Source of the DNA: Symbiodinium sp. CCMP2592
Lineage: Eukaryota > Sar > Dinophyceae > Suessiales > Symbiodiniaceae
Direction of reading: 5' to 3'
NCBI GenBank assembly: GCA_905221615.1
Contig: CAJNDT010005735.1
Coordinates: forward strand, 106,001 to 170,000
Length of the DNA stretch: 64,000 nt
Part shown: piece by piece, positions 2,427-41,525 of the stretch
Position numbering within the stretch: the stretch's first letter is position 1
Layout of the letters: each line of letters begins with the position of its first letter
The notes under the pieces: generated by a model
Told to the model about the DNA's origin: nothing
What the model saw: only the letters and a program-made list of their open reading frames with translations
Databases searched by the model: none
Translations under genes and position numbers: made by a program

Positions 2427-2536
2427 AGGATTTATATAATCAACCGTATGTTTAGGAGGGAGACGCGAGCCTCCAGCCATCTTCCAGGAGGCCGACCAAC
2501 TCACTCGACTGAAATCCTGGGGTCTTGCCAGGGAAC

Positions 2537-2670
2537 CGTGGGTTTAGGGTTTAGGGTTTTTTTAAAAGCTCCTTTTTAGGGTTTAGGGCTTAGGGTTTAG
2601 GGTTGAGTAGGGGAACCCCAAACCCTTAAACCCTCAACCCTAAACCCTGAACCCTAAACCCTAACCCCTT
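2537..2670. repeat. telomere-like repeats with an orientation flip
   Basis: TTTAGGG units (2540-2605) are followed within about 20 bp by CCCTAAA units (2618-2670). The right part belongs to the 172-bp direct repeat that flanks the retroelement. Confidence 0.8.
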
Positions 2671-2768
2671 ACTGTTAACGCTTTATTGTTTTGAGCTTTT
2701 GGAGTCCCGGGTTCAGGGTTTAGTCTGGGGCTGAGGACTTAGGAGTTTGGGCTCAGGGGAATGGAAGC
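2597..2768 (+). repeat. 172-bp flanking direct repeat, left copy
   Basis: Matches 7881-8052 base for base in length with only a few substitutions. It runs from TTAGGGTTGAGTAGGGG to CTCAGGGGAATGGAAGC. The two copies bracket the retroelement and its minisatellite exactly, so this is either an unusually long target-site duplication or the edge of a duplicated segment. Confidence 0.9.
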
Positions 2769-2769
2769 C

Positions 2770-3125
2770 CACTTGGTGCAGACGCTGGCTCGAAGCAGTA
2801 AAGAGGCACCGATTTCTCAAACTCTCGCCACTATGGCTTCACAGGCTGGTTAGGACTTTGCTACCCTAACTGTACCCTTGTCGCTTTAGCGGGTTCAGCC
2901 AAAAAACTTCGATATGCTCATCTTGCATCCGCGTTTAGGATGCTCAAAGAAGCATGTTGAAGCAAGCACTTTAAGGGCTCGCTGTCACGAGAGTGTGTTC
3001 GCTGTCAAGAGAGTGTTAAACAAACTCGCACCTCTAGCCCCAGGCCTGTTGCCCAGGATCTCCTGGAAGTCTGTTCGCCTCAGGCGCGGTGTGGGTTCTA
3101 TCATCCCGAGAGAAACGGAGAGGGA
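2770..3125 (-). repeat. pseudo-LTR, 3' copy of the PLE
   Basis: A 356-bp segment nearly identical to 6438-6793, with a few substitutions (for example GGGTTC versus GGATTC near the right end). It runs from CACTTGGTGCAGACGCTGG to CGGAGAGGGA. The RT stop codon (3101-3103) lies inside it, so the last RT residues are encoded by the repeat. The copy is directly adjacent to the left 172-bp repeat. Confidence 0.93.
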
Positions 3126-4342
3126 GTCACCCTCCTTCCATCCCCTTGCTCCTCCATTTGAGTCTCTCCGTATGCTTTCATGACATAGTTGCTTTCGCGG
3201 ACTTTGTGCGTCAAATGCTTATCAGGCAATCGCCAACACATCTGTAAGTCTGCTGGTTGTCCAGTATGGAGATCCATCTGGCACTTCTTCCAGACCCTGT
3301 TGCAGATGTGTGGGATCCTGGATTCACTCCAAGCTTGCCTGTATGGAAGCACCAGTCTGGGCAAATGCTTATGTCCATCTCTTCTCTTCAACCGCGGGCC
3401 GGATTCATCCTCACAGGCTTCAAACCCCGTGTGGTGCCGGTAGCGGTCTTTGAACTTCCGTGCTTCAGCCATGGCTGTAGCAGGGTCGCTGCATCGCATC
3501 TTGATGCGTCTCAGCTGCCCTTTCGGCCATGAAGCGTGCACAGATGGGTGATGCGAAGATGAACATAGCAAACGTGTCCACTGGTTTGTAGGCTTCGTGT
3601 GGAGTCTGTAGTCTAAGACGCCTGTCTTCCTCCACCCTGGGCCCTTGAAAAGCACTACATCAAGCATCGAGATCGATTGTTGGCTCACTTCATCAAAATG
3701 GATAGCAAAAGGTTTGGCTTTCTCTCGGAAAAGTCTCTCGAAACTCCGGCGTTGGTCACGAGAGCCAGATGTGATGATCAATCCGTCATCTTTTAATCTG
3801 GCATAAAAGATGATCCCGAACTGGCTCTGGGTCATATGGTCTGCCGCGAAGTTGCTTTCAGCTAAATGACAAAACGCACAGTCACTCAGCTCTCCACTGC
3901 AGGTGAGTCCCATGCCGGATCCTATACGGACGTCATAGAGGAGATCATGGAAACCGTCTGTTACTATCTGCGATTTGAGTATGTGCTCCACCAGTAAGCG
4001 CGCGGATTCCCGGAACTTCGCTGGAAAAGCTTCTTCTGTAGCTGTACATATCGCAGAGTGTGTCCCAGACATGAAAAACTCCTTGACATCAAAACGGAAA
4101 AGCCAAGCCTCTGGAGGAACTTTTACCTGGCGAAGGACATCAAGAAGGTGATCAGTGTCCTTGAGTATATGGGTATACTGAGCCAAGTGTGTTTTGAGGA
4201 GGGAGGAAATCCACTTCATACCCGGCTTCATGAAATGATCCGGAGCAGCATGTACCAACCTCATCTTCTGTTCTCCTTCAGGCTTGTGGGTCTTGACTGT
4301 TGTCAAGATCTTAGTAACAAAACTTCTGCACCCACTCCTCAA
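3101..4342 (-). CDS. Penelope-like reverse transcriptase, endonuclease-lacking
   Basis: This frame would copy element RNA into DNA. With residues numbered from the TTG at 4342, KTHK is at 17-20 (the PLE KxHK motif), FDVKEFF with the motif A Asp at 85, GSGMGLTCSG (motif B) at 141-150, and LKDD (motif C) at 183-186, where most PLEs have Y-x-DD. DYRLHTKPTN ends at 253, HHP begins at 265, PKGQLRRIKMRCS ends at 285, and LVLPY is at 330-334. This order matches PLE RT through the thumb and linker. The protein then ends after about 413 residues with no GIY-YIG domain. There is no ATG near the start: the first Met is residue 27, after the KTHK motif. The frame is open upstream only to a TAA at 4355-4357. 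It continues the frame of ORF2, so the two probably form one interrupted polyprotein. The RT call is firm; activity is doubtful. Confidence 0.9.
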   Translation of the reverse strand: MRSGCRSFVTKILTTVKTHKPEGEQKMRLVHAAPDHFMKPGMKWISSLLKTHLAQYTHILKDTDHLLDVLRQVKVPPEAWLFRFDVKEFFMSGTHSAICTATEEAFPAKFRESARLLVEHILKSQIVTDGFHDLLYDVRIGSGMGLTCSGELSDCAFCHLAESNFAADHMTQSQFGIIFYARLKDDGLIITSGSRDQRRSFERLFREKAKPFAIHFDEVSQQSISMLDVVLFKGPGWRKTGVLDYRLHTKPTNQWTRLLCSSSHHPSVHASWPKGQLRRIKMRCSDPATAMAEARKFKDRYRHHTGFEACEDESGPRLKRRDGHKHLPRLVLPYRQAWSESRIPHICNRVWKKCQMDLHTGQPADLQMCWRLPDKHLTHKVRESNYVMKAYGETQMEEQGDGRRVTPSPFLSG

Positions 4343-4354
4343 CGAAGATAGGAG

Positions 4355-4363
4355 TTAATTTTA
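4355..4363 (-). other. two in-frame stops (TAA-AAT-TAA) between ORF2 and RT
   Basis: On the minus strand ORF2 ends with TAA at 4363-4361, then AAT, then TAA at 4357-4355. The RT frame continues in the same register immediately afterwards. Either the polyprotein is broken here or synthesis needs readthrough or reinitiation. Confidence 0.85.
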
Positions 4364-5089
4364 GAGATCTGCGTCCTCTGTTTGGTGGCCGATGTACTTG
4401 ACTATGTAGGTGTAGTCCTGAGCGATATCCTCAACCATTGCTTCATGAGCAAATCTTTCCCCGTAGACGGGCAAAGATAAGGAATCAAGGACCGCCTTCG
4501 CAAGAGACTGCTTCCAGACGAGAGCATATCCCCCATCCTTGTCTGTACGCACAGCTCCTACCGGGCCCTCGCGCAGCATTTGGATTCCCCATTTTGCTAC
4601 TCTGCTGAGGTTCGAAATGCAAGACTGAGAAAACTTCAAACTGCTTCGCTTCCCATAGGCCGTGGTGAAGACTCCTCTCTTCAATTCATAGATGAAAACT
4701 TCCCATTCATCAGCCAGCTTGTGAGGGCATGGTGGTGTGCTTCTACGGCTTCGCAGCTTCCACCATACCGATCGCTCCTGGCTGTCCCCCTCGGATTCAG
4801 AATGGAATAGCCTCCATCTCAACTTGTTCTCCCATTGGGAGATGGCACGGCTCAGTTCTGACATCGGCGGCAGTCTCTTAGATTGAAAAATATGCTTCGG
4901 ATGTAAACGTAAAACGAATTCCACAGGCCATGGCACCTGGCCTTTCTCCAGAATTGAAGCGCACTTGTATTCAGGAACATAGAAGTAGGCACCCGGGTGG
5001 CCCTTTCCACAATCCATCAAAATTTTCAACTCTGGAGCGGTCATGCTGCGGGTGAGGTCAAGGAACCGTCTCACCATCTCTTCCTCCAT
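4361..5089 (-). CDS. PLE ORF2, probable N-terminal part of the RT polyprotein
   Basis: A 242-codon frame from an ATG at 5089. Its start overlaps the end of ORF1 by 19 bases: the ORF1 stop TGA is at 5073-5071. The protein is mixed charged and hydrophobic, with no membrane segment. Tryptophan-rich segments such as WENKLRWRLF and WWKLRSRRS occur in the middle, and it ends ...YIVKYIGHQTEDADL. I recognise no catalytic domain. It lies in the same frame as the RT and directly upstream, and PLE RTs usually carry an N-terminal extension before KxHK, so I infer that it is that extension cut off by the two stops. A separate accessory protein is the alternative. Confidence 0.7.
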   Translation of the reverse strand: MEEEMVRRFLDLTRSMTAPELKILMDCGKGHPGAYFYVPEYKCASILEKGQVPWPVEFVLRLHPKHIFQSKRLPPMSELSRAISQWENKLRWRLFHSESEGDSQERSVWWKLRSRRSTPPCPHKLADEWEVFIYELKRGVFTTAYGKRSSLKFSQSCISNLSRVAKWGIQMLREGPVGAVRTDKDGGYALVWKQSLAKAVLDSLSLPVYGERFAHEAMVEDIAQDYTYIVKYIGHQTEDADL

Positions 5090-6408
5090 CCAGCTTTGCC
5101 TTTTCCTTTCCCTTCCTTGCCTTTTCCAGGCTTGCCTCCTTTGCCTTTTCCTTTCTTTGCGTGGTGCCAGGCATACCCTAAAAAAGACTTCGATGCATCA
5201 CTGGACGGGTGGGAGGATGGTCCTTTGCTCGCCTTTCCTTTCGCGGCTCCTTTGCCCTTCGCCCCTTTGGTGTCCACGCCTTTCCAAGCTCCTTTGCCCT
5301 TGTCCTGTCCTTTTCCTTTTCCTTTTCCTTTGTCTTTGCCCTTTCCTTTTCCTTTTCCTCCTTTGGGGTCTTGCTGAGTCTTGTTGTTCTGCTTGGCGGT
5401 CTCGATCCAGAAGGTCTCGACAGGGTCACTTTGCATTCCACTGGTGGTAGCCACGAACGCACTGGCTGAGTTCAAGTGCGGGTTCACTCCATCTCTGCTG
5501 CTGTTCGCCGAACGTTGCTTCACATTCTCCTTGATGCGCGCGTCAATCGTTTGCTTGAGCAGCTCTTCCGGGGTTTTCAGGAGCATCTTGTTGACCATGT
5601 CCTGCTTCTTCTTCTCCTGGAACTTCAAGTGATCCTTGCGCTTCTTGACTAAAGCTGCCGCCTGGTCCACAGTCTTGTTGTAGACGTTGCTCGCTTTGGA
5701 CTCCACCATGCTGGTTGTGATCTTGTTGGCTTCCGGTTCTTCCTCTTCAAAATCCAGATCTAAATCCCGCCAAGTCTGGACTTTAGACTTGAAAGACTCT
5801 GAGCACTTGTTCACGAACTCAGACTTCTTGGTGGCTTTTCGAAGGTCTACTCGCTGGGCATTAGCTATCATCAGGTCAATCTTCCGCATGGAGTGCAGGT
5901 AGCTGCAGTGGATGATCTTCTTAGCATCCCTCAGCGTAGTTTGCTCTGGGATCTCTACGTGCCATGAACTCTCTCCAAAGGTAAGAGAGTCCAAGAAGGG
6001 AGTCTCGTAGGGGAACGAAACTGGCTTCATCCCATTCGGAACCCTCATCATCTTCAGGCACTCGATGTCTTTCTCATGCTGCATGATGCGGGAGTTGGTC
6101 TTCTGCAGCTGTTCTATCTTCGTTGCAAGTTCCAAAGACACCTTTTTGATCAGCTTCAAAGAGTCTGCTGGGATCACTTTGGCGAACTCATCTTCTACTG
6201 CCATTTTGATATTCCGGATCTTATCCTCTTCTTCTTTCCTCATGTTGAGTTCAGGCTCTTGCTCTGTGCGTGTGTTGGCCTCTTCGGGCTCCCTGGATCT
6301 CGTTCGCGATCTTCTGGGCTCTGCTGTCGGGGCCGGAAACTGCTGGGCCGCCGTTGCTAGAAGAGGCCTTCCTCTTCGCTGACTATCGGAAGCCTCACTG
6401 CCGACCAT
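5071..6408 (-). CDS. PLE ORF1: charged protein with basic Gly-Lys tail
   Basis: I place the start at the ATG at 6408, in an ACCATGG context 29 bases inside the pseudo-LTR end; upstream in-frame codons offer only a GTG at 6477. The product is 445 residues. The N-terminus is Arg/Ser/Glu-rich (EPRRSRTRSREPEE). It is followed by a long charged, heptad-like stretch with a KIEQLQKTNSRIMQHEKDIE segment, then an acidic patch (DLDFEEEEPE) and a lysine-rich helix-like region (KKRKDHLKFQEKKKQ). The last 97 residues are dominated by GK and GKGK repeats and end in GWRKRW. A coiled-coil part and a basic tail are what a retroelement ORF1 RNA chaperone would have; that role is inference. Its 3' end overlaps the ORF2 start, so ORF2 may depend on reinitiation or frameshifting. 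Confidence 0.85.
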   Translation of the reverse strand: MVGSEASDSQRRGRPLLATAAQQFPAPTAEPRRSRTRSREPEEANTRTEQEPELNMRKEEEDKIRNIKMAVEDEFAKVIPADSLKLIKKVSLELATKIEQLQKTNSRIMQHEKDIECLKMMRVPNGMKPVSFPYETPFLDSLTFGESSWHVEIPEQTTLRDAKKIIHCSYLHSMRKIDLMIANAQRVDLRKATKKSEFVNKCSESFKSKVQTWRDLDLDFEEEEPEANKITTSMVESKASNVYNKTVDQAAALVKKRKDHLKFQEKKKQDMVNKMLLKTPEELLKQTIDARIKENVKQRSANSSRDGVNPHLNSASAFVATTSGMQSDPVETFWIETAKQNNKTQQDPKGGKGKGKGKDKGKGKGKGQDKGKGAWKGVDTKGAKGKGAAKGKASKGPSSHPSSDASKSFLGYAWHHAKKGKGKGGKPGKGKEGKGKGKAGWRKRW

Positions 6409-6437
6409 GGTCTGAAAGTCTGACTTGCCACGAAACA

Positions 6438-6793
6438 CACTTGGTGCAGACGCTGGTTCGAAGCAGTAAAGAGGCACCGATTTCTCAAACTCTCGCCACT
6501 ATGGCTTCACAGGCTGGTTAGGACTTTGCTACCCTAACTGTACCCTTGTCGCTTTAGCGGGCTCAGCCAAAAAACTTCGATATGCTCATCTTGCATCCGC
6601 GTTTAGGATGCTCAAAGAAGCATGTTGAAGCAAGCACTTTAAGGGCTCGCTGTCACGAGAGTGTGTTCGCTGTCAAGAGAGTGTTAAACAAACTCGCACC
6701 TCTAGCCCCAGGCCTGTTGCCCAGGATCTCCTGGAAGTCTGTTCGCCTCAGGCGCGGTGTGGATTCTATCATCCCGAGAGAAACGGAGAGGGA
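6438..6793 (-). repeat. pseudo-LTR, 5' copy of the PLE
   Basis: Partner of 2770-3125 at an offset of exactly 3,668 bases along its whole 356 bp. It lies just upstream of the ORF1 ATG (6408), so it would carry the promoter and 5' leader. Its outer end, ACGGAGAGGGA, runs straight into the minisatellite at 6783-7880. Confidence 0.93.
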
Positions 6794-7880
6794 CGGAGAG
6801 GGAGAGGGACGGAGAGGGACGGAGAGGGAGAGGGACGGAGAGGGACGGAGAGCGGAGAGGGACGGAGAGGGACGGAGAGGGACGGAGAGGGACGGAGAGG
6901 GACCGGAGAGGGACGGAGAGGGACGGAGAGGGACGGAGAGGGACGGAGAGGGACGGAGAGGGACGGAGAGGGACGGAGAGGGACGGAGAGGGACGAGAGG
7001 GACGGAGGGACGGAGAGGGAGAGGGAGAGGAGAGGGAGAGGGAGGGACGGAGAGGGACGGAGAGGGAGGGAGGGAGAGGGAGAGAGAGAGGAGAGGAGAG
7101 GGAGGGACGGAGGAGGGACGGAGAGGGACGGAGACGGAGAGGGACGGAGAGGGACGGAGAGGACGGAGGGAGGGAGGGACGGAGAGGGACGGAGGGAGGA
7201 GGGACGGGAGGAGAGGAGACGGAGAGGGAGAGGGAGACGGAGCGACGGAGGACGGAGAGGGACGGAGAGGGACGGAGAGGGACGGAGAGGGACCGACGGA
7301 GAGGGACGGAGAGGGACGGAGAGGAGAGGGACGGAGAGGGAGAGGGACGGAGAGAGAGACGGAGAGGGGAGGAGACGGAGAGGGAGAGAGGGACGGAGAG
7401 GAGAGGGGAGAGGGACGGAGAGGGACGGAGAGGGACGGAGAGGGACGGAGAGGGACGGAGAGGGACGGAGAGGAGAGGGAGAGGGACGGAGAGGGAGAGG
7501 GACGGAGAGGGACGGAGAGGGAGAGGGAGAGGGACGGAGAGGGACGGAGGGACGGAGAGGGACGGAGAGGGACGGAGAGGGACGAGAGAGGGACGGAGAG
7601 GGAGGGAGGGACGGAGAGGGACGGAGAGGGACGGAGAGAGACGGAGAGGGATGGAGAGGGACGGAGAGGGACGGAGAGGGACGGAGAGGGAGAGGGACGG
7701 AGAGGGACGGAGAGGGACGGAGAGGGAGGGACGGAGAGGGACGGAGAGGGACGGAGAGGGACGGAGAGGGAGAGGGACGGAGAGGGAGGGACGGAGAGGG
7801 ACGGAGAGGGAGAGGGACGGAGAGGGAGAGGGACGGAGAGGGACGGAGAGAGACGGAGAGGGACGGAGAGGGACGGAGAG
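6783..7880. repeat. 10-bp minisatellite (GGACGGAGAG)n
   Basis: About 1.1 kb of GGACGGAGAG with interspersed 6-bp GGGAGA shortenings and occasional single-base slips. The plus strand is almost all purine. The unit equals the terminal ACGGAGAGGGA of the adjoining pseudo-LTR, so the array seems to have grown from it. It produces open frames of 375-443 codons on both strands (RDGEGRRGTE-like and SPSLSVPLRP-like); these are low-complexity artefacts. Confidence 0.95.
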
Positions 7881-8052
7881 TTAGGGTTGAGTAGGGGCAC
7901 CCCAAACCCCTAAACCCTCAACCCTAAACCCTGAACCCTAAACCCTAACCCCTTACTGTTAACGCTTTATTGTTTTGAGCTTTTGGAGTCCCGGGTTCAG
8001 GGTTTAGTCTGGGGCTGAGGACTTAGGAGTTTGGGCTCAGGGGAATGGAAGC
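7881..8052 (+). repeat. 172-bp flanking direct repeat, right copy
   Basis: Same length and almost the same sequence as 2597-2768. It begins TTAGGGTTGAGTAGGGG directly after the minisatellite and ends GGGAATGGAAGC, after which the sequence differs from the left copy. Confidence 0.9.
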
Positions 8053-39978: not shown

Positions 39979-40009
39979 TGCTTGTTTCCCCCAGCTGAAA
40001 CCGCCAGCT

Positions 40010-41525
40010 CGCACCCTGTTCGGAAATACATATCCTATAGGAAATTACAATTCGCACCGTTGTTTTTCTTGGATTCCAAGCACAAATCCTATGGGAAATT
40101 ACAATTCGCACCCTGTTCGGAAATACATATCCTATGGGAAATTACAATTCGCACCCTTGTTTTTCTTGGATTCCAAGCACAAATCCTATGGGAAATTACA
40201 ATTCGCACCCTGTTCGGAAATACATATCCTATGGGAAATTACAATTCGCACCCGTGTTTTTCTTGGATTCCAAGCACAAATCCTATGGGAAATTACAATT
40301 CGCACCCTGTTCGGAAATACATTAAGTAGACTCTGTTTCTTGGCATCCAGGTACAGCATCCTATGGGAAATTACAATTCGCACCCTTGTTTTTCTTGGAT
40401 TCCAAGCACAAATCCTATGGGAAATTACAATTCGCACCCTGTTCGGAAATACATTAAGTAGACTCTGTTTCTTGGATTCCAAGCACAAATCCTATGGGAA
40501 ATTACAATTCGCACCCTTGTTTTTCTTGGATTCCAAGCACAAATCCTATGGGAAATTACAATTCGCACCCTGTTCGGAAATGCATATCCTATGGGAAATT
40601 ACAATTCGCATCCGCTCGCACCCTGATTAGCGCTTGTGTTTCTTGGATTCCAAGTACAAATCCTATGGGAAATTACAATTCGCACCCTGTTCGGAAATAC
40701 ATTAAGTAGACTCTGTTTCTTGGCATCCAGGTACAGCATCCTATGGGAAATTACAATTCGCACCCTTCTTTTTCTTGGATTCCAAGCACAAATCCTATGG
40801 GAAATTACAATTCGCACCCTGTTCGGAAATACATATCCTATGGGAAATTACACTTCGCACCCTTGTTTTTCTTGGATTCCAAGCACAAATCCTATGGGAA
40901 ATTACAATTCGCACCCTGTTCGGAAATACATATCCTATGGGAAATTACAATTCGCAGCCTTGTTTTTCTTGGACTCCAAGCACAAATCCTATGGGAAATG
41001 ACAATTCGCACCCTGTTCGGAAATACATATCCTATGGGAAATTACAATTCGCACCCTTGTTTTTCTTGGATTCCAATCACAAATCCTATGGGAAATTACA
41101 ATTCGCACCCTGTTCGGAAATACATATCCTATGGGAAATTACAATTCGCACCCTTGTTTTTCTTGGATTCCAAGCACAAATCCTATGGGAAATTACAATT
41201 CGCACCCTGTTCGGAAATACATATCCTATGGGAAATTACAATTCGCACCCGTGTTTTTCTTGGATTCCAAGCACAAATCCTATGGGAAATTACAATTCGC
41301 ACCCTGTTCGGAAATACATATCCTATGGGAAATTACAATTCGCACCCTTGTTTTTCTTGGATTCCAAGCACAAATCCTATGGGAAATTACAATTCGCACC
41401 CTGTTCGGAAATACATATCCTATGGGAAATTACAATTCGCACCCTTGTTTTTCTTGGATTCCAAGCACAAATCCTATAGGAAATTTCAATTCTCACCCTG
41501 TTCGGAAATACATTAAGTAGACTCT
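40010..41525. repeat. composite minisatellite, 43+54-bp higher-order unit
   Basis: Every subunit begins CCTATGGGAAATTACAATTC. One type (43 bp) continues CGCACCCTGTTCGGAAATACAT; the other (54 bp) continues CGCACCCTTGTTTTTCTTGG. They alternate, giving a 97-bp dimer. A third variant with TTAAGTAGACTCTGTTTCTTGG appears four times, the last one at the end of the array. The repeat has no stop in any plus frame, so 97 bp (not a multiple of 3) yields open frames up to 257 codons that cycle through all three readings. These are not supported genes. Confidence 0.95.

Follow-up and report, generated by a model that had tools for sequence, protein, structure and literature searches.

A decayed Penelope-like insertion in a dinoflagellate genome, with long target-site duplications and possible telomerase-like slippage at its 5' end

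Penelope-like elements (PLEs) and telomerase are regarded as descendants of a common ancestor. Athena of bdelloid rotifers and Coprina are endonuclease-deficient PLEs; canonical PLEs have a GIY-YIG endonuclease downstream of the reverse transcriptase (RT), or upstream of it in permuted PLEs. A hammerhead ribozyme in the pseudo-long terminal repeat (pLTR) is common, though not universal, among canonical PLEs, and PLEs can retain introns; R9 of rotifers bears an endonuclease. Canonical PLEs (Poseidon/Penelope; PAc of Anolis) are described as having tandem or partial-tandem copies, pLTRs, and an internal site, close to where pLTR and open reading frame (ORF) meet, that determines the 3' boundary (PMC11167929). 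Endonuclease-deficient PLEs reportedly acquire telomeric repeats at their truncated 5' end, and one PLE case in A. vaga has a target-site duplication (TSD) of 9 bp (PMC3846280). Athena was reported to have no G-quadruplex potential outside telomeric repeats (PMC10088271), and the 126-bp TSD of R9 is quoted as a large distance (PMC6895275). The bacterial defence RT DRT10/UG17 uses an A-B-A' template next to a stable structure to make tandem-repeat cDNA and has been proposed to form one clade with TERT and PLEs (PMC12632851). Here we analyse a 64,000-nucleotide stretch of the genome of Symbiodinium sp. CCMP2592 (contig CAJNDT010005735.1, positions 106,001 to 170,000; hereafter the window), in which positions 2769–7880 are probably (about 0.58 by our estimate) a decayed insertion of an endonuclease-lacking Penelope-like retrotransposon whose RT slips in a telomerase-like manner at the 5' end of its RNA.

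Long target-site duplications and 5' seed arrays

Our analysis confirms the window element, which is encoded on the minus strand. Its 3' and 5' pLTRs (2764–3125 and 6432–6793) form a direct repeat of 362 bp with five mismatches and no gaps (98.6% identity); an earlier reading made without database searches (the sequence-only reading) had recognized the repeat but gave its length as 356 bp. Adjoining the 5' pLTR is a tandem array (6783–7880) of about 111 copies of a 10-bp unit, CCCTCTCCGT on the element sense strand, defined by Tandem Repeats Finder and by periodicity. Because a 172-bp duplication encloses both the element and this array (2597–2768 on the element's 3' side, overlapping the pLTR end by 5 bp, and 7881–8052 on its 5' side; 98.8% identity), the insert ends at 7880 and comprises 2769–7880, including the 1.1 kb of array at its 5' end, rather than the 2770..6793 proposed earlier. 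The 3' pLTR starts with an unexpanded seed, TCCCTCTCCGTTTCTCTC (3108–3125), whose first part is the array unit, and directly 5' of the seed lies a G-rich block (3126–3170) with seven GG tracts in 45 nt.

Protein searches of the 1.10-Gb assembly (5383 contigs) gave 24 matches with a first query and 31, including more distant ones, with a second, both lower bounds. We examined ten full-length copies belonging to eight subfamilies (the window copy, C2113, C1669, C5351, C5021, C1780, C2802, C1494, C957 and C399) and seven 5'-truncated loci (C5288, C4534, C2535, C949, C1820, C345 and C4914). Contigs C4959 and C1694 carry one and the same locus, with a 10-bp array that differs in length between them. 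C1694 has no mismatch to the window in either the element (4025 bp) or the adjoining left flank (2596 bp) and a single one in the right flank (9448 bp); further to the left the two are only 85–91% alike. We count them as one insertion. Besides this duplicate, the counts omit C3518 (identical to part of C1494), C4914a (overlapping C4914b), C779 (no relative defines its ends) and loci known by coordinates alone, namely C1615 except where named, C5309, C4335 and the weaker second-query matches.

Long TSDs, of 172–917 bp, were found in nine of 13 testable insertions. In seven of them the flank repeats are free of gaps and 98.8–100% identical (172 bp in the window, 917 bp in C2113, 683 bp in C1669, 665 bp in C5351, 415 bp in C5021, 521 bp in C957 and 566 bp in C5288), and with an overlap of 0–10 bp they abut the insert on both sides, at its array or truncated 5' end and at the end of its pLTR. 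The flank repeat of C4534 measures 734 bp (99.0% identity), with an extended GT tail between the repeat and the aligned element end. At C4914, a 274-bp flank repeat is present three times, alternating with two copies of an 853-bp truncated element, which is best read as an insertion with a TSD and a subsequent tandem duplication. No long flush flank repeat was found at C2535, C949, C1820 or C1494. Four loci fall outside the testable set: C1780, which has an N run, C399, where the contig starts, and C345 and C2802; partial flank repeats at C345 (477 bp, 98.5%) and C2802 (268 bp, 95.5%) were not counted. As side observations, the tandem growth at C4914 (L024/L032) probably took place by exchange between TSDs, and C4534 (L031) has a longer 3' GT tail than its relative C5021, which may point to 3'-end slippage as well.

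The 917-bp target of C2113 is present in the assembly, at our search sensitivity, only as its two copies, with each flank beside one copy; elsewhere in the assembly the C5021 target is matched only by short fragments. No empty site was found for C5021 or C2113, the two sites searched. The truncated-end junctions show microhomology of 0–2 nt in seven of eight cases and of 6 nt in C957, values on which we rejected microhomology-driven capture as the source of the TSDs; a few unmatched bases are present at C1820.

All ten full-length copies possess a pLTR pair (170–385 bp) and, at the 5' end, a tandem array built from units that match the beginning of the pLTR. The short units are CCCTCTCCGT in the window copy, GAT in C1669 and C5351, AAC in C5021 and C1494, GCTGTT in C1780 and C2802, and CAC in C957; longer ones were found in C399 (43 bp) and C2113 (39 bp, about 1.8 copies). 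None of the seven truncated loci has a seed array at its 5' end, and at that of C1820 telomere-type repeats take the place of the array. In the internal 3' pLTR, by contrast, 10/10 full-length copies have this seed in unexpanded form. Within 45 nt 5' of the internal seed, at least four closely spaced GG tracts are present in every one of these copies, compared with 2–14% of other segments of the same elements. By G content, the block ranks in the top 1.6% of segments in six copies and the top 4% in C2802, but only in the top 7–10% in C2113, C1780 and C1494. C957 is a partial tandem copy enclosed by a single TSD: a truncated unit, which ends in the G-rich block, is followed by the array and then by a full unit. 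The seed array of C2802 comes after a (GTG)n run that derives from the G-rich block. These two copies show that the RNA can extend into or past the block. If the RT were stopped by the internal G-rich block, solo pLTRs should occur, but none was seen among the loci examined: in the C1669 subfamily 5/5 pLTR matches, and in the C5021 subfamily 4/6, lie within known copies, and the other two are at C5309 and C4335 (coordinates only).

Coding capacity and relationships

ORF1 lies upstream of ORF2 in all ten full-length copies and is interrupted in C5021. In the window (minus strand, standard code), ORF1 extends from stop to stop over 5071–6498, with its first ATG near 6408, and encodes 475 amino acids with a GK-rich C-terminal tail; the RT is encoded by ORF2 (3101–5197, stop to stop), the conserved part of which starts near 5089. 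ORF2 is in the -1 frame of ORF1 with an overlap of 124–340 nt (124 nt in the window) in nine of ten copies, from seven subfamilies (the frame for C1780 and C2802 was recomputed from ORF coordinates), and its conserved part begins without an ATG in several full-length copies. This arrangement raises the possibility of a programmed -1 frameshift. ORF2 of C2802 is split.

Two adjacent in-frame stops at 4355–4363 divide the window ORF2 into an N-terminal part (4361–5197) and an RT part (3101–4354), from which we conclude that this copy is dead. An intron at the site is not favoured, since the frame is the same on both sides of it and intact relatives have no interruption there. C2535, a 93% relative of the window element, is free of these stops yet has deletions of its own. 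Between the two, ORF2 shows 29 synonymous and 29 non-synonymous changes over 629 codons (two stops skipped), and the resulting pN/pS of 0.28 indicates that the protein has been under selection. The motifs named in the sequence-only reading (KTHK, FDV, LKDD, KPTN and PKGQLRR...CS) are all located within the RT part. LKDD, singled out there as an unusual motif C, is present in the window copy but is not a family feature: C2535 has FKDD and 8/8 other aligned members have R[FY][KR]DD. We therefore regard it as a private substitution and not as a functional novelty.

The RT is of the PLE/telomerase type. The predicted fold of one relative's RT has telomerase as its best match, and the alignment to the RYIDD-type RT L079 runs through a PLE-like C-terminal S-H...R...CS block. 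L079 itself (C3664:9001-12500) is a 731-aa protein with best PADLOC matches to Drt3a (E 2e-14) and UG17 (DRT10; 6e-13); among the family proteins the UG17 match is weak for L028 (E 0.014) and absent for L017 and L037. PDB sequence searches with family proteins gave nothing convincing, and no relatives were found in viral contigs with one query.

The absence of a GIY-YIG domain after the RT, noted from the sequence alone, agrees with our searches: no match was found at E<=1 in the three window ORFs. The same held for ORF2 of seven relatives, ORF1 of three relatives and the L079 ORF, and with 150 of 240 candidates scored, the nearest of 127 genomic GIY-YIG matches is 31 kb from an RT match. For a hammerhead ribozyme in the pLTR, Rfam scans gave no match at the gathering score in the window or the loci of seven relatives, and none at E<=5 in window positions 2500–6850.

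The anatomy is well supported, and we assign the family to a variant of endonuclease-lacking PLE-like elements. The interpretation given in the sequence-only reading is partly supported. With Athena and Coprina the family shares a PLE-like RT and the lack of GIY-YIG; in its C399 subfamily (C399, C1820, C1615) the 3' end is directly on CCCTAAA repeats. It differs from endonuclease-deficient PLEs in that the 5' array derives from its own seed, most copies examined are interstitial and the TSDs are hundreds of base pairs long, and from Athena, as far as described, in that the G-rich block is constant in the copies examined. The tandem or partial-tandem layout, the pLTRs and a 3' boundary near the pLTR-ORF junction are as in canonical PLEs; the separate GK-rich ORF1, the long TSDs, the seed arrays and the lack of GIY-YIG and Rfam hammerhead matches are not. 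R9 also has a long TSD but is rDNA-specific; its 126 bp is the longest TSD that we found quoted, whereas the family reaches 172–917 bp with no recognisable endonuclease. New relative to the literature found are TSDs of up to 917 bp and arrays, apparently templated by the element, at full-length 5' ends.

A proposed mechanism and its alternatives

In the mechanism that we favour, the RT would copy the element RNA into a break or gap with strand interruptions hundreds of bases apart, with a 3' boundary that is nearly fixed at the pLTR end, and fill-in of the gap would leave TSDs of 172–917 bp. On reaching the 5' end of the RNA, the RT would slip back repeatedly on the short seed and add many copies of it, as telomerase adds repeats, while an early stop of synthesis would give a 5'-truncated copy without a seed array. 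The G-rich block may act as a template boundary. Telomerase (TERT and its RNA) is the best match to the predicted RT fold, and under this mechanism, which is drawn from genomic footprints, the family would resemble it in an output of tandem repeats from a short template and in a possible boundary 5' of the template, although here a mobile element would be copying its own coding RNA and the repeats would come after a full-length cDNA. DRT10 also makes tandem-repeat cDNA from a template beside a stable structure, but it uses protein priming, its template is a non-coding RNA and it is not a mobile element. A fuller picture, which is more tentative and which we place somewhat below even odds, is that of a mobile retroelement whose RT adds repeats at the 5' end of the element's mRNA in the manner of telomerase, with a G-rich boundary, subfamily-specific arrays, endonuclease-less insertion at widely staggered ends with TSDs of up to 0.9 kb and one subfamily that joins TTTAGGG-type repeats. 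Such an element would be a living counterpart of a step between retrotransposon and telomerase.

Other origins of the arrays have to be considered. A bare seed might have been inserted and later expanded as DNA by replication slippage or unequal exchange, which we regard as unlikely: most units are short (3, 6 or 10 bp) and expansion-prone, the array lengths of C4959 and C1694 differ, and the C5351 array has a 51-bp higher-order periodicity. Against this, every full-length copy has an identical seed in its own 3' pLTR that is unexpanded, the 43-bp unit has been expanded as well, and C1669 carries a 358-bp array despite the absence of any substitution in 683 + 170 bp of TSD and pLTR. Slightly less likely again is an array inherited in the RNA from a master locus that carries it upstream of the pLTR, with transcripts starting, and copies ending, inside it; mouse L1 is an example of promoter monomers upstream. 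Such inheritance would fit the order of truncated unit, array and full unit within one TSD in C957 and the constancy of the unit within subfamilies (C1669/C5351, C1780/C2802), but between sister copies with bodies 99.5–99.8% identical the arrays differ even in the part next to the pLTR, and C2802 has a second unit type, from the G-rich block.

Two further alternatives concern the duplications and the enzyme rather than the arrays. It is very improbable that the flanking repeats are not TSDs but tandem duplications that either preceded the insertion or arose later by recombination. The alternation at C4914 does show that tandem duplication occurs, and neither site searched gave an empty site; however, in seven insertions repeats of different lengths and unrelated sequences meet the insert ends within 0–10 bp, C4534 has its repeat behind the extended GT tail, and at our search sensitivity the 1.1-Gb assembly gave no further occurrence of the 917-bp repeat. 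That the RT belongs to a separate telomerase/UG-type lineage which converged on the PLE layout is improbable, if less so: Pfam RVT_1 was unlisted at E<=1 for the window ORF2 parts and for ORF2 of seven relatives, and motif C is R[FY][KR]DD, but pLTRs, 5' truncation, partial tandem copies and the S-H...R...CS block are PLE-like, and the L079 alignment extends through the C-terminal block.

If the RT does make the arrays, the step from retrotransposon to telomerase could be studied experimentally in an enzyme that exists today and for which nature provides eight template variants. Among the open-access papers listed in our searches, we found no description of short-template repeat addition, the hallmark of telomerase, in a mobile element. 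TSDs in excess of the 126 bp of R9 point to endonuclease-less insertion at widely spaced strand ends. Both the long TSDs and the 5' arrays are readily recognized in genome sequence, and other dinoflagellates can be screened for them.

Telomeric context and host genome

The window contains 411 TTTAGGG/CCCTAAA heptamers (6.4 per kb), in degenerate blocks throughout 1–64000. Its description as telomere-like DNA is correct in this respect, but the insert lies at about 109–114 kb of a 547-kb contig, away from the contig ends. The points at which copies join telomeric repeats give a divided picture. In the C399 subfamily the 3' end is directly on CCCTAAA repeats in 3/3 copies (C399, C1820 and, by match extent only, C1615); the C399 contig starts inside its 43-bp array, and C1820 is located between GGGTTTA and CCCTAAA blocks, with partly inverted flanks. 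Of 17 loci, six show a heptamer no more than 60 bp from a junction, and in seven the flank (up to 600 bp a side) contains 0–1; these mixed counts indicate that the family is not strictly telomeric. Heptamer density in the family flanks is 5.4 per kb, compared with 0.37 at 28 GIY-YIG loci, a biased control that provides no fair background.

Judged from its sequence, the host genome is that of a dinoflagellate; the dinoflagellate spliced leader has 429 exact matches in the assembly and its reversed control has none. Telomerase_RBD has a single match in the genome (C5235), so that the host has its own, separate TERT candidate.

Elsewhere in the window, high-identity tandem arrays with units of 97 bp and 54 bp occupy 40009–41513. 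At 2574–2665, sub-threshold microRNA matches are located on telomere-like inverted repeats.

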